Part shown: in pieces, positions 26,319 through 32,525 of the stretch
How positions within the stretch are numbered: position 1 is the stretch's first letter
Layout: the number at the start of each line of letters is the position of its first letter
DNA from: Candidatus Thorarchaeota archaeon
GTDB lineage: Archaea > Asgardarchaeota > Thorarchaeia > Thorarchaeales > Thorarchaeaceae
Length of the DNA stretch: 64,000 bases
Direction: 5' to 3'
Assembly (NCBI GenBank): GCA_021498125.1
Contig: JAIZWL010000001.1
Coordinates: forward strand, 124,001-188,000
Position numbers and translations under genes: made by a program
The notes under the pieces: generated by a model
The model's database searches: none
The model's input: the letters and a program-made list of their open reading frames with translations, nothing else
What the model was told of the DNA's origin: nothing

Positions 26319-27363
26319 ACGTGATACTGCAATTGAACGCCTCCGAAGCCTTGGGGTCAATATAATCTCAAAGATTCAACAGGACACTTTTCCCAAGATT
26401 GAACTGCCTGATAGAGGTACCTCGAACATTGTTTTTGATACAGAGAAGAATCAATTTGTTCTAGGCCCAGCTACATCTGTACGAGACTCGAGTAATCTCC
26501 GCCACATACGAAGCTTTACGCAGCTTCTATGGGTTGCCTCATATGCAAAGAAACTTCTCAAGTCCGGGCGCACAAGTTCTCTTCGTGACCTTTACTATTC
26601 AAGTGAGGCATTTGGAATATCCTTCAAAGACCAAGCGGAATCGGATCGAATAGTTGCTGATTTAGAATGTGTAGTTGGTCTGGCTCGTGAAGACTTCGGT
26701 ATCTTTCCTGAGGAGCATTCTTCTATCTATGGTCCTGTGATCATGCGTTATACCGTTGCAGGTTATCAGGGTCGAGAGATTGATCTGACAATTAGTCCTG
26801 ATGGTCTTCCTATAGGTCCGGCATTGGTGACAGCCGATCCCATTCATACTGATGCAAGAATAATACTTGCAGTCGAATCGGGGGGTATGTTCTCACGTTT
26901 GATTGAGACCAATGCATGGAAGAAGTTTCACGCCATACTTGTACATTTGGGTGGACAGGCACCCCGCTCTACCCGGCGATTAATGCGGCGTCTTCACGAC
27001 TCTCTCAAATTGCCTGTTTTCATATTTACTGATGGTGATCCTTGGGGGATGCATATTGCCCGGGTGATAATCTCCGGCAGTGCTAATGCAGCTCATGTTG
27101 AAGGATTGACTGTACCTGACGCTCAATGGATTGGTGTCACACCCTCTGATATCACAAAGTATGGTCTTCCGACCGAACCTATGAACGATGCTGATCTTCG
27201 TCGTTTAGATGAGCTGGCACGCGACCCTCGATATTCCGATGATGAATGTCAGGCGCAAATTCGTGCCTTTCGCCAACTTCGTCAAAAGGCCGAGCAACAG
27301 GCCTTTAGCAGGCATGGGATTGATTTTGTAGTGGATCAATATTTGCCTGCGAAGTTACATTAG
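26305..27363 (+). CDS. top6A: DNA topoisomerase VI subunit A (Spo11 family)
   Basis: DNA-cleaving subunit. The winged-helix domain has the catalytic tyrosine in SLRDLYYSSEAFGISF (either Tyr of the pair). The Toprim domain shows ILAVESGGMFSRL (metal-binding Glu) and FTDGDPWGMHIARVI (DxD). ATG 26305 overlaps the subunit B stop by 14 bases; an ATG two codons later is equally possible. 352 residues, normal length. Its stop overlaps that of the convergent glycosyltransferase gene. Confidence 0.96.
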   Translation: MTMSERDTAIERLRSLGVNIISKIQQDTFPKIELPDRGTSNIVFDTEKNQFVLGPATSVRDSSNLRHIRSFTQLLWVASYAKKLLKSGRTSSLRDLYYSSEAFGISFKDQAESDRIVADLECVVGLAREDFGIFPEEHSSIYGPVIMRYTVAGYQGREIDLTISPDGLPIGPALVTADPIHTDARIILAVESGGMFSRLIETNAWKKFHAILVHLGGQAPRSTRRLMRRLHDSLKLPVFIFTDGDPWGMHIARVIISGSANAAHVEGLTVPDAQWIGVTPSDITKYGLPTEPMNDADLRRLDELARDPRYSDDECQAQIRAFRQLRQKAEQQAFSRHGIDFVVDQYLPAKLH

Positions 27364-28412
27364 ATCCAGCCTATGCCAAGTGGTATGCCTATCAACAATA
27401 CAGCCACGGCGCCATACGCAACTATTGCCTGAATTAACCACAGTAGACGAACATTTCGTTTCTCATCAATTCGCATGAAATGCGGTAAGACCCAATACAT
27501 GGTGAACGGCCCCACTACCGATAGCGTTCCATCCTCACGAGGGGTTGCAAATTTTTGATATTCGATGCCTGTTCTCTTAACGTATAATTTGTAGATGATG
27601 AACAGGATAAAGTTGATCCCGAATGGGAAATAGAGAATGATTGCCATTCTGTCCATGTTTCCAAGTATCAACGCGGCCGCAATTGTTGCTCCAATCGGTA
27701 ATCTCCCCACATCACCGGGAAGTACTCTTGCAGGGAACTTGTTGAATATTAAAAATGCCAGAGTGGCACCAAGTAGTGCTCCTGCAATGATTCCTGCATC
27801 GAAATTGGTCGATGACATACTCTCATGCGAGAAAAATGGTGAGAACAGCACAAAGAGAATTATCGCAGATGAATTGATTGCCGCCAGTCCTGATTCAAGA
27901 CCATTCATACCACCATACATGTTTGTAGAATCAATGATGAATGTCATCAGGAGTGGAATCACAACTAAGGGGTAAATAATCCCCAGATTAATCGTACCTA
28001 TGAACGGAATGCTCATTGTTGAGGTTCCCACTTGCATTGCCGCCATTGGGATAGATGCAATTAGTGGTAAGATGATCTTTGTTCTATTTCTAAAGTCAAA
28101 GTCGTCATCAAGCTGACCGATAAGTCCAGCCATCAGAATGGACACTAGTGCGGCCAGTAACCCCGGATTAACGCTTCCATTTCCAAGTGTTGTTGCTCCG
28201 ATTATGATTAGTAACGATGTGACGATTGCGAAGAGCACCACAAATCCCGCGCCTTTTGCGACTTCCGGCTTCTCTATCTTATGGACATCGGTGCCAGTGA
28301 TCCCCTTTTCCTTGAGCATTTTAATGGTGTTCGGCATTGTCAATAATACAATAATGAATGCAATGATCCCTGTTGCAATGATCAACAACAATCTTGGCTC
28401 ACTCCGGGCCAC
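27360..28412 (-). CDS. MraY/Alg7-like UDP-GlcNAc-1-phosphate transferase (GPT family)
   Basis: Membrane enzyme expected to transfer GlcNAc-1-phosphate from UDP-GlcNAc to dolichyl phosphate, the first step in lipid-linked glycan assembly. Ten or so helices; the key family motifs are GLIGQLDDDFDFRNRTKI (the DDxxD motif), NMYGGMNGLESGL (NxxxxxNGLE) and LPGDVGRLPIGA (the GDxG motif). The start is GTG 28412; a TATA-like CTATAAAA lies about 22 bases upstream, so the mRNA is nearly leaderless. It is divergently arranged with the ribophorin I-like gene across a perfect inverted repeat. MraY-type, WecA-type or AglH enzymes are alternatives; the sugar is unproven. Confidence 0.85.
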   Translation of the reverse strand: MARSEPRLLLIIATGIIAFIIVLLTMPNTIKMLKEKGITGTDVHKIEKPEVAKGAGFVVLFAIVTSLLIIIGATTLGNGSVNPGLLAALVSILMAGLIGQLDDDFDFRNRTKIILPLIASIPMAAMQVGTSTMSIPFIGTINLGIIYPLVVIPLLMTFIIDSTNMYGGMNGLESGLAAINSSAIILFVLFSPFFSHESMSSTNFDAGIIAGALLGATLAFLIFNKFPARVLPGDVGRLPIGATIAAALILGNMDRMAIILYFPFGINFILFIIYKLYVKRTGIEYQKFATPREDGTLSVVGPFTMYWVLPHFMRIDEKRNVRLLWLIQAIVAYGAVAVLLIGIPLGIGWI

Positions 28413-28575: not shown

Positions 28576-31539
28576 ATGTTGAACCATCTGCGTAGACGAA
28601 TTATGACTCTTGCATTATTGACTATGTTCGTTGTCAATGGCCTTATGATGGCGTCTGTATCATCAGACCCAAATGGTATGCTATCAACGGCGACAACGGC
28701 AATTAGAGAGCCTTCGAGATCACTTGCAGCATCAGACGTCAATGTGTCTATTCCGTATGTGGACACGCACTATGGCTATGCGGATGGTATTATCGATCCC
28801 ACCGAATATGCTTACAACTTTACAGATTCTACAACTGGGGTCACCGTATTTATGGAGCATAATTCTTCGGTTCTCTTTGTGGGACTTGAAGCACAGACAT
28901 CTGGCTGGGTTGGCCTCGCATGGAAGCATCCTGGTGAGAACTATACCGTTGAGGGTATCACCAATGCAGATGTTGTTCTTGGCTGTGCCCCTGGGACCCC
29001 ACATGAAACCTACCCCCGAGTAGTTAATACCTCAGTTATACGGGTGCACTATACTCTTTATGCACGTAATGGTACACAACTTGAGGAAGGTTATGCTCCC
29101 GATGGCACTTCTGACACTCCTCTCTACAAGGAATCATTGCTTGATATGTACAAGGACGCACTATTAGGAATGCGTGTGGGCGAGACAAAACACTTCATCA
29201 TTCCTGCCGAATTCGGTTATCCCGAAGGTAGCCACATGTATGGTGAAGATCTCGAGTTTGTGGTCACAGTGGAGCAGATCGGCCCCAGTTCTGACAATCC
29301 TGCTGATAGCAGTCAGATTGTTTATGCCGATGCACACGGCATCAAGACGCTTGATCATGCTACTGATGGAAACCAGAGCAGAATTATTGCAGCAAATGCC
29401 AGTGACACAGGTACTATCACACAGATTGAATACTTTATTCGACTGAATAGTACCGATTCCGATGACATTCCACTTTTGAACTCAACGACCCTTCGTTATC
29501 CCTTTGTGATTTTAGTTGGGGCTACTGATGATTTAACTACTCTACCAAACAGTCACACAGATTGGGCACATCCATTGCTTGTTGGATTTACTCCTGATAC
29601 CGCCCCGATAATTGATCCCGTCACACCAAAGGAAAATGGTACACTTGAGTGGCTTGTGACTCTACAACTAAATGCTAGCGATGATACTATTGTTCGCAAG
29701 GCCGGATTTCGGCTTGATAATGAGAGTTGGACCAGTCTTCATTATAATTTTAAGACTGATTTTTGGGAATACACGCTTGATGTTTCCGAATACGAGTCTG
29801 GTTCTCAGCATGTTATATGGTTCAATGCGACTGACGGATCCAATTCGACGACTGTGGTTTCGTTTAACATTACAGTGACTATCCCCTATATCCCAATAAT
29901 GGGTGCATCGGTTTCAGTCAGTCGAACAATTGCCACATTGATGTATCATACTACCAAGATTACAGATGCATTCGTCATTGACAACTCTAATGCAGTACCA
30001 ATATCTGCAATTGAGTTTTATCTCCCCTGTGAATACACATCTAATTTCCTCTCCGTAGAGGCGTCTGATTCATCAGAGAACCCACTGGAAATTGTAGAAC
30101 TTCCCGCGAATAATGGAATGTTACATTGGCGGGTCATTCTCTCCACTCCTGTAGAACCCGGTGACAGATACGAGTTTACTGTCACTATGTACCTCCACTC
30201 CTTGCACATAATTACCGACTTTGATAATAACCTCTACAAATTCAAATTCCTTAAGGCCCCTGTTCTTCCATATATCATCAAGAGACTTGCTGTTTCCATG
30301 GCGCTTCGCAGCGGTGATTCCCTGCACAGTGGTGTCAATCCAGAGGGTGTATACTACAATATTGCGCCTATGACCATAGATACTTTCGATATTGTCTTGA
30401 GTTCAGTCACACCATTGCTTGTAGCCACTCGAACTACACAAGTCACAGTTGATCCGTGGGGCTGGTTGCACTATAAGGAAACAATTCACATTGAAAATAT
30501 AGGCCCCTCTAAGGAACTCGACATTAGTTTCAAATTCCCTGCATATGCGACTAACATCAAAATCTATGATGATGTTGGAATTCTCGCGGGGTCGATGCCT
30601 CAAGAGCATGACTGGAATGAAACCCTTAATCAACGAATAAATCTCAAAGGCGATAGATTTGGCGATCGCGGGTTCTGGCCAGGTTACAAGTATACATTCA
30701 GTGTGGACTTTAACCTATATCTCCCTGAGTATCAGACGCAGACTGGTGACGGCGAACTCCTTACCATCCCAATGGCGACCACAGATGAGATTTTAGTCAC
30801 GTGCCATACAATTGATGTAGTTGTGCCTATTGGAGTCAATCCTCTTCGCCCCTCTGATGGGTATAGGCTTCTCTATGGAGTCTTTGATGCGACCTTGAGA
30901 TACACGGTATATAATACGACGCAGGAAAACACACCCCAACTTACTCTCCTCTATCAATTGACTCCTGCAATCATGGCCCGCCCATTAGCAATTGCTCTAA
31001 TTCTCGGCCTTGTTGCAGCTGCATATGTTTCAATTAGAAAGGTCAAGATGGTTGCAGAGGGTGAAGAAGGTATTTCTGCAGAAACCGGTTCCACAGTGTA
31101 TCAGAGTGGCGCACCACCAGAGCTGCTGAGCGAATTCGCGAAATTGTACTCCAAGAAGACTGCGTTGAACCTCGATCTTGACAAACTTGAGTCCTCACGT
31201 AAAAGAGGCAAAGTTTCCAAGCGCGAGTTCATGAAACGCGAACGTGACATTAAATCGCAGCTTGCAGAGCTTGACACAAAGCTTGCTACTCTAAAGGGGC
31301 AGCTCATCACATATGGATCCCGATATCGTGATGTCGTAGGCCAGCTCGAGCTCCAAGAGGAACGGATGGAAGGTGCAAAAGCCGGGCTCCGTCAATTGCT
31401 CATTCGAAAGAAGAAACAGAAGATCAGTCGTGGCGCATTTGAGAAAACACGTCAAGAGTATCTCAAGACCGTCAAGCAGTCAGTGACCGCGATAGACCGT
31501 ATTCTTCTGAGCCTTCAAGAAGAAGCTGGCGAAATTTAG
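28576..31539 (+). CDS. DOMON-FKBP-ribophorin I (OST1)-like membrane protein
   Basis: A 987-residue exported protein, single-span at its C-terminus. Order: N-terminal signal peptide (about 1-27); DOMON-like domain (about 61-136); FKBP-type domain (about 153-236: VIRVHYTLYARNGTQLEEG, LLGMRVGETKHFIIPAEFGY); Ig-like domain (about 345-437); and a region resembling eukaryotic ribophorin I (about 441-987). The last includes RVILSTPVEPGDRYEFTVTM, DPWGWLHYKETIHIENIGP, IKIYDDVGI, GYKYTFSVDFNLYLPEYQTQ, a transmembrane helix (803-822) and a helical cytosolic tail. Ribophorin I is a subunit of the oligosaccharyltransferase, so the tail end may dock to or chaperone the STT3 homologue. Many NxS/T sequons are present. 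The ribophorin match is by eye. Confidence 0.78.
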   Translation: MLNHLRRRIMTLALLTMFVVNGLMMASVSSDPNGMLSTATTAIREPSRSLAASDVNVSIPYVDTHYGYADGIIDPTEYAYNFTDSTTGVTVFMEHNSSVLFVGLEAQTSGWVGLAWKHPGENYTVEGITNADVVLGCAPGTPHETYPRVVNTSVIRVHYTLYARNGTQLEEGYAPDGTSDTPLYKESLLDMYKDALLGMRVGETKHFIIPAEFGYPEGSHMYGEDLEFVVTVEQIGPSSDNPADSSQIVYADAHGIKTLDHATDGNQSRIIAANASDTGTITQIEYFIRLNSTDSDDIPLLNSTTLRYPFVILVGATDDLTTLPNSHTDWAHPLLVGFTPDTAPIIDPVTPKENGTLEWLVTLQLNASDDTIVRKAGFRLDNESWTSLHYNFKTDFWEYTLDVSEYESGSQHVIWFNATDGSNSTTVVSFNITVTIPYIPIMGASVSVSRTIATLMYHTTKITDAFVIDNSNAVPISAIEFYLPCEYTSNFLSVEASDSSENPLEIVELPANNGMLHWRVILSTPVEPGDRYEFTVTMYLHSLHIITDFDNNLYKFKFLKAPVLPYIIKRLAVSMALRSGDSLHSGVNPEGVYYNIAPMTIDTFDIVLSSVTPLLVATRTTQVTVDPWGWLHYKETIHIENIGPSKELDISFKFPAYATNIKIYDDVGILAGSMPQEHDWNETLNQRINLKGDRFGDRGFWPGYKYTFSVDFNLYLPEYQTQTGDGELLTIPMATTDEILVTCHTIDVVVPIGVNPLRPSDGYRLLYGVFDATLRYTVYNTTQENTPQLTLLYQLTPAIMARPLAIALILGLVAAAYVSIRKVKMVAEGEEGISAETGSTVYQSGAPPELLSEFAKLYSKKTALNLDLDKLESSRKRGKVSKREFMKRERDIKSQLAELDTKLATLKGQLITYGSRYRDVVGQLELQEERMEGAKAGLRQLLIRKKKQKISRGAFEKTRQEYLKTVKQSVTAIDRILLSLQEEAGEI

Positions 31540-31658: not shown

Positions 31659-32525
31659 ATGATGAACACCAAAATTGTTTTTGACAGGTCGAAAATACAG
31701 GTTCTGGATCTATTGCAGCCAGGAACAAAGGCTATGGAGATGTATCAATATCTAAAGAACTCACCACGAGTCCAATCATATCTCCGCACTGCTAATAGAA
31801 TGGCGGTTTCACGACTCGGCTATACTGATCATGGTCCTATCCATGCAGAGGTGGCAACATGGAATGCGCTGAAGGCATTTGAAATTCTTGAGAAATCGTT
31901 TATCCCCAATGTTGTTGCCGAGGGGATTGGTGATATTGACGATTCGCGAATGGTTGTTCTTGCCTCAACATACCTCCATGACATTGGTATGGTCATCCAT
32001 CGTAAAGAGCACCCTCAAGCAGCAGTTCAACTTGCACGACCCATTCTTGAATCAAAACTGGCTGATCTCTATGACAATCCTGGTAAGGCCACGGATATAC
32101 TGTCCTTTGCACTCCATGGTATCTATGCGCATGATGATGATACAATGTGCTTGACCTTTGAAGCTGGCATGACCAAATTAGGTGATGGCTGCGATATGAC
32201 CAAAGGTCGGACGATTATCCCTTATCAGAAGGGGAAAGTGGATATTCACTCAGTTAGCGCCCTTGCAATTAATGATGTGGTTTTGGAACCGGGTGATGAT
32301 ATTCCTCTAAGAATCACTGTTGCAATGGATAATCCGGCTGGAGTCTTCCAAGTCCAAGCAGTGTTGCAGAAGAAAATATCTACTACTGGCCTGAAAGATC
32401 ATGTTGCAGTTGATGTACTTGTAAATGGTGAACGTCTGGTTCTCTCCCAAGTCAAGCGTCTATTTAGAACGCATATTGCCGAAGATGCTGAAATCCCCAG
32501 CATCAAAGAGCGCACCTCTGAGTAA
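31659..32525 (+). CDS. HD-domain metal-dependent phosphohydrolase-like protein
   Basis: A 288-residue protein with an HD fold: TDHGPIHAEVATWNALKAFEIL (first His), ASTYLHDIGMVIHRKEHPQAA (the HD pair), FALHGIYAHDDDTMCLTFEA and LGDGCDMTKGRTIIPYQKG (distal Asp), so all metal ligands appear to be present. Substrate is unknown; similar archaeal proteins are described only as HD-domain phosphohydrolases. The C-terminal ~90 residues form a beta-rich extension. ATG start (two in tandem). A tRNA-Gln gene lies just downstream on the other strand. Confidence 0.82.
   Translation: MMNTKIVFDRSKIQVLDLLQPGTKAMEMYQYLKNSPRVQSYLRTANRMAVSRLGYTDHGPIHAEVATWNALKAFEILEKSFIPNVVAEGIGDIDDSRMVVLASTYLHDIGMVIHRKEHPQAAVQLARPILESKLADLYDNPGKATDILSFALHGIYAHDDDTMCLTFEAGMTKLGDGCDMTKGRTIIPYQKGKVDIHSVSALAINDVVLEPGDDIPLRITVAMDNPAGVFQVQAVLQKKISTTGLKDHVAVDVLVNGERLVLSQVKRLFRTHIAEDAEIPSIKERTSE

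Follow-up and report, generated by a model that had tools for sequence, protein, structure and literature searches.

The question raised by this locus was whether a single archaeal gene joins a subunit of the oligosaccharyltransferase (OST) to a folding domain. Thorarchaeota are Asgard archaea, relatives of eukaryotes, and Asgard OST1 was already known (PMC10307638, PMC11417166). The window, which is the whole stretch of 64,000 nucleotides that was analysed, carries at 28576-31539 on the + strand a single intact ORF with an ATG start, 987 amino acids and no internal stop. An initial annotation, made from sequence alone, had read its product as a ribophorin I-like protein preceded by a signal peptide and by DOMON, FKBP and Ig-like domains. 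Our analysis showed, for both the architecture and the OST1 fold, that the product is a Thorarchaeal ribophorin I (OST1) whose N-terminal extension comprises a DOMON domain, an FKBP inserted in it and an Ig-like domain.

Identity of the C-terminal part

An AlphaFold2 model of the full protein was built from 21 orthologues and had a mean pLDDT of 81. Its pTM was 0.44, so the placement of the N-terminal module relative to the OST part was unreliable. The model was compared with the PDB using Foldseek. The seven best matches were human and yeast OST1 chains (E 2.5e-30 to 2.6e-19), and the eighth match was eight orders weaker than the seventh. For 6s7t_E, the TM-score was 0.73 of the target over 446 columns with an rmsd of 4.2, and for yeast 8agb_E it was 0.69.

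Sequence comparison was consistent with the structural matches. Among PDB sequences, phmmer ranked 8whn_A first (E 1.8e-8, residues 842-980); this entry is the cytosolic domain of ribophorin I from MK-D1. A profile comparison of the cytosolic bundle with 8whn gave E 8e-11. A profile made from six shorter homologues of other Asgard families matched human RPN1 (6s7o_E) over its full length at 5e-31, 8whn at 9e-23 and yeast Ost1 (6c26_1) at 6e-17. The Pfam family PF04597 (Ribophorin_I) matched neither the fusion protein itself nor anything else in its own genome. It matched 6 of the 21 fusion orthologues (best 5.5e-8) and five of the six homologues from other Asgard families (best 6.5e-27), and the miss was thus resolved through the homologue profiles and the structure. 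On the Foldseek matches, the match of the tail to 8WHN and the family profile to RPN1, residues 440-987 are ribophorin I.

The ribophorin part begins with paired extracytoplasmic beta domains at residues 440-795 (29893..30960, +), which were identified by Foldseek to human and yeast OST1 and by the profile to RPN1. They are followed by a single transmembrane helix at residues 798-822 (30967..31041, +; hydropathy maximum at 798-816, model helix at 798-822) and by a cytosolic four-helix bundle at residues 843-987 (31102..31536, +), which is homologous to MK-D1 OST1 (8WHN) and has four helices in the model. With a signal peptide and a single span in both hydropathy and model, the protein has the type I topology of ribophorin I. 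Ribosome binding has been demonstrated for the cytosolic domain of MK-D1 OST1 (PMC11417166). By analogy, the bundle of the fusion may be a ribosome-binding domain, which rests on this homology without binding data for the fusion.

The proposal that the C-terminal ~550 residues are ribophorin I-like therefore held, and the predicted structure matched OST1 better than any other PDB entry. The proposed closeness to eukaryotic OST1 did not hold, since the likeness is remote, with an identity of only 14-16%. The single span was confirmed, with its extent corrected from 803-822 to 798-822, and the proposed cytosolic coiled-coil tail was corrected to the four-helix bundle of OST1.

An FKBP inserted into a DOMON domain

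The signal peptide occupies residues 1-27 (28576..28656, +), with a hydrophobic stretch at 9-27, a model helix at 3-23 and disorder after it. In the alignment of orthologues, a variable linker extends from there to residue 52. The first half of the DOMON domain lies at residues 52-146 (28729..29013, +), where beta strands were modelled with a pLDDT of about 90, and it can be aligned to the opening half of Asgard DOMON proteins that have no interruption. The FKBP domain follows at residues 147-238 (29014..29289, +) in a loop of the DOMON. Both fold and family score identified it as an FKBP: Pfam FKBP_C matched residues 149-231 above the curated cut-off (E 2.7e-7) and was found in 21 of 21 orthologues, and Foldseek matched FKBP2, FKBP11 and SlyD. 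The sole NCBIfam match to the fusion was BamJ, far below threshold and on the FKBP part. The second half of the DOMON lies at residues 239-335 (29290..29580, +), and the Ig-like domain lies at residues 340-436 (29593..29883, +), where Pfam Big_7 matched 348-412 above cut-off and was present in 16 of the 21 orthologues.

The DOMON assignment required more care. The fusion protein scored below the cut-off of Pfam PF03351, and module orthologues were matched only below threshold (8/22, best E 0.00025). With the two DOMON halves joined, hmmscan returned weak DOMON matches and nothing more, and a PDB profile search gave nothing useful. An AlphaFold2 model of the module alone was well determined (pLDDT 89.7, pTM 0.84), and its top 50 Foldseek matches were all FKBPs because the FKBP dominates the search. 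The assignment therefore rests on uninterrupted Asgard proteins. A profile of the joined halves (52-146 plus 239-335) found, in other Asgard families, stand-alone DOMON proteins that lack an FKBP. They align to the profile without a break at the join, and their best PF03351 score is 5e-29. Since these proteins are continuous across the join, the FKBP was inserted in a DOMON loop; it is nested inside the DOMON, not in tandem with it. All the domains proposed ahead of the ribophorin part were thus confirmed, and only their order was refined.

In one genome (G020), a paralogue of 586 residues (L054:3130-4890) lacks the ribophorin part and bears the DOMON-FKBP-Ig module on a C-terminal anchor of its own. 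In the tree, the FKBP of this paralogue falls within the fused copies, so the paralogue probably derives from the fusion.

Distribution, conservation and gene neighbourhood

We surveyed 228 genomes of the phylum, 47 of which belong to the same family as the host. The fusion was unbroken in 39 of these 47, in independent assemblies, and a further six carried it in pieces at contig ends (45/47 counting pieces). The possibility that relatives would lack the DOMON/FKBP part, which would have refuted the initial annotation, was thereby ruled out. The fusion was absent from two of the 47 genomes (G022 and G207), which also lack the adjacent GT4 gene, so that the region is missing there. Among Candidatus Thorarchaeota, the two closest homologues were 77% and 59% identical over the whole protein, and a partial third was 65% identical over 399-987. 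No FKBP/DOMON fusion was seen in the ribophorins of any other Asgard family searched; homologues there were ORFs of about 540-760 aa whose alignment was restricted to 424-985.

The first DOMON half had a mean pairwise identity of 0.62, the FKBP one of 0.57 and the second DOMON half one of 0.51. The values were 0.45 for the extracytoplasmic part of ribophorin and 0.67 for the cytosolic bundle. The first DOMON half and the FKBP are more conserved than the extracytoplasmic ribophorin part, which indicates that the module is under constraint.

The divergent neighbour of the fusion (27360..28412, -) encodes a GT4-family polyprenyl/dolichyl-phosphate sugar-phosphate transferase of the AglH/Alg7/MraY superfamily (Pfam Glycos_transf_4, E 2.8e-27). 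It adjoined the fusion in all 12 same-family neighbourhoods read, which shows synteny of the fusion with a gene for an enzyme of N-glycan-pathway type. The order RIO1, KH, Top6B, Top6A, GT4 (divergent), fusion, HD-like, Trm112 was kept across these 12, except at L048, where no Top6 pair lies between KH and GT4. GT4 homologues were also located near OST1 in three other Asgard families (L050, L053, L056), and glycine-cleavage genes adjoined OST1 in four further loci (L049, L051, L052, L055). These shared neighbours support orthology. STT3 is encoded in the same genome with an OST3/6-like membrane part.

Further side observations were made. The GT4 gene is a possible lead to the enzyme that initiates the N-glycan in Thorarchaeota. 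Downstream of the fusion, 31659-32522 (+) encodes a conserved protein of 288 residues with the HD-like motif TYLHDIGM; it has no Pfam or NCBIfam match, is 67-85% identical in relatives and is constant in position. The OST3/6-like membrane part is an ORF of 160 aa about 2 kb upstream of STT3 (G000:C1:52058-55620).

N-glycosylation sequons

N-X-S/T sequons were counted and compared with shuffles of the same sequence. The module contained 16, compared with 3.9 in shuffles, and none of 5000 shuffles reached 16. The ribophorin part contained 2, compared with 2.8. Summed over the 21 orthologues, the module had 279 sequons versus 88 shuffled and the ribophorin part 71 versus 58, and the cytosolic tail was sequon-free in 19 of 21. 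The N-terminal module is thus four-fold enriched in sequons. That these are in use and the module is heavily N-glycosylated is inferred.

The FKBP pocket and its relation to other FKBPs

Several pocket positions of FKBP12 were replaced in the 22-sequence alignment. F36, D37, R42 and F46 became L/I, Q/E, P and S. The family as a whole keeps its replacements: position 42 is P in 22/22 sequences, position 46 is S in 20/22 and position 90 is Y in 22/22. Y26 and Y82 were invariant, W59 was replaced by Y, F99 was Y/F, and H87 was mostly retained. The aromatic floor and walls (Y26, Y82, and aromatic residues at 59 and 99) were invariant or nearly so, suggesting that a binding groove was retained. Isomerase catalysis is uncertain because the pocket is altered.

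Other Asgard families encode small proteins with a predicted signal peptide, an FKBP and one span, often with a cysteine-rich tail (f17, f18, f14), and the small FKBPs of f26 have an N-terminal anchor instead. The YTxPxHxLYG region is common to the anchored Asgard FKBPs and the fused FKBP to varying degree. In the tree, cytosolic Asgard FKBPs and human FKBP12, FKBP2 and FKBP11 formed one clade (99/98), apart from the membrane-anchored and fused FKBPs. The alignment had 93 columns only, and deeper forks were weak or unresolved. The human FKBP12 and FKBP11 sequences, and FKBP2 in part, were not database copies. Within these limits, and with human FKBP11 of the OST-A translocon on a different branch, the fusion seems to connect FKBP and OST physically in a way that arose independently, which is an inference.

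FKBP11 was also considered as a homologous precursor of the fused FKBP. The tree, though on a short alignment, speaks against this. FKBP11 is in the other branch, so its parallel with the fusion is a functional analogy only.

As a separate observation, anchored extracytoplasmic FKBPs laid out like human FKBP11 occur in other Asgard families (L060, L063-L067, L070-L073, L075, L076, L083). Many have a cysteine-rich (zinc-ribbon-like) tail, and one genome (G068) has several copies.

Proposed function and alternative explanations

Gene fusions indicate proteins that work together. Human FKBP11 binds ribosome-associated translocons with OST-A, where it was placed only recently, and it is seen with RPN1 in a secretory translocon structure (PDB 9n9j; PMC12804085). 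Homology to OST1 would place the fused FKBP at the channel exit, next to STT3. The explanation that we favour, with moderate confidence and without activity or complex data, is that the protein is an OST1 subunit whose extracytoplasmic DOMON-FKBP-Ig module acts at the OST/translocon. The cytosolic bundle would dock the ribosome beside Sec61 and STT3, and the module would be placed on the cell membrane's outer face, where the channel opens and the OST active site lies. There the FKBP may bind or isomerise proline-containing nascent chains during sequon scanning, and may keep them unfolded or aid folding after glycosylation. The fusion would then achieve covalently what human cells do at the OST-A translocon with FKBP11, a separate protein that has its own membrane anchor.

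Isomerase or chaperone action on nascent chains was ranked as the most likely role of the FKBP, in the absence of activity data. The coupling of glycosylation to folding by the attached isomerase, as initially proposed, is plausible as an inference; with several residues of the FKBP12 pocket replaced, activity as an isomerase cannot be taken for granted, and membership of an STT3 complex is itself inferred. A bolder reading, which we consider slightly less likely than not, is that of a Thorarchaeal covalent OST-foldase, in which the FKBP acts as a chaperone where nascent chains are N-glycosylated, and which arose independently of FKBP11. If this were true, glycosylation and folding would be coupled co-translationally at the translocon outside eukaryotes as well.

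The main rival, which remains possible, is that the FKBP is a catalytically weak or dead adaptor which, like FKBP11 with CCDC134, brings a chaperone or a substrate-specific factor to the OST translocon. The family-wide conservation of the pocket replacements (P 42, S 46, Y 90) and the precedent of FKBP11 support it: in the GRP94 structure, CCDC134 buries the FKBP11 catalytic site, and the authors argue against a nascent-chain isomerase role (PMC12804085). Against it, the conserved aromatic residues suggest a retained groove, and the fused FKBP is not known to have a partner protein.

An unlikely rival is that the DOMON and Ig-like domains have the main function, as an OST tether to the cell-surface glycan layer or in sugar or haem binding, with a minor role for the FKBP. 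Described DOMON domains bind sugars or haem; there are no ligand data for the fusion. Stand-alone Asgard DOMON surface proteins exist, and the G020 paralogue retains DOMON-FKBP-Ig without ribophorin, so the module can function away from OST. However, the FKBP is about as conserved as the DOMON, its loss from the module was never seen, and the paralogue, nested among fused copies in the tree, also retains it. That two unrelated genes were joined by an error of assembly or gene calling is excluded: metagenome-derived genomes are misjoinable in principle, but no evidence for this was found, the ORF is unbroken in 39 independent assemblies, the flanking genes on both sides are constant in the 12 neighbourhoods, and the two genomes without the fusion also lack its neighbouring gene.

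Comparison with known systems

The favoured reading, an OST1 subunit with a module acting at the translocon, can be set beside known proteins. In the literature searched, which did not include subscription papers and preprints, we came across no description of Asgard OST1 with an attached FKBP or DOMON.

Human RPN1 and yeast Ost1 share with the fusion the paired extracytoplasmic beta domains, the single span and, in human, the cytosolic helical bundle, in identical order. The fusion differs in that it has about 400 extra N-terminal residues (DOMON, FKBP and Ig), shares only the remote identity given above and is inferred to lie on the cell membrane, whereas RPN1 and Ost1 lie on the ER. MK-D1 OST1 (8WHN, PMC11417166) and other Asgard OST1s have the gene family and the cytosolic bundle in common with it, and in several families they are syntenic with glycine-cleavage P genes. 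Those examined are shorter (ORFs of about 540-760 aa) and have no FKBP. Stand-alone Asgard FKBPs (e.g. L060, L064) have the same FKBP subfamily, the YTxPxHxLYG motif and a predicted extracytoplasmic topology. In contrast to the fusion, they are 150-260 aa long with their own anchor, often with a cysteine-rich tail, and have no DOMON and no ribophorin.

FKBP11 at human OST-A resembles the fusion in being an FKBP anchored in the membrane at the channel exit, next to RPN1/STT3A. It is a separate protein, dynamically recruited, and belongs to the FKBP12-type branch, whereas the fused FKBP belongs to the Asgard extracytoplasmic branch. In these archaeal relatives of eukaryotes, OST1 is joined to an FKBP from a branch separate from human FKBP11. 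This suggests that placing a foldase next to the translocon that glycosylates is a solution that recurs and that predates the ER or extends beyond it. The fusion also offers one compact protein for testing the coupling of N-glycosylation and folding.
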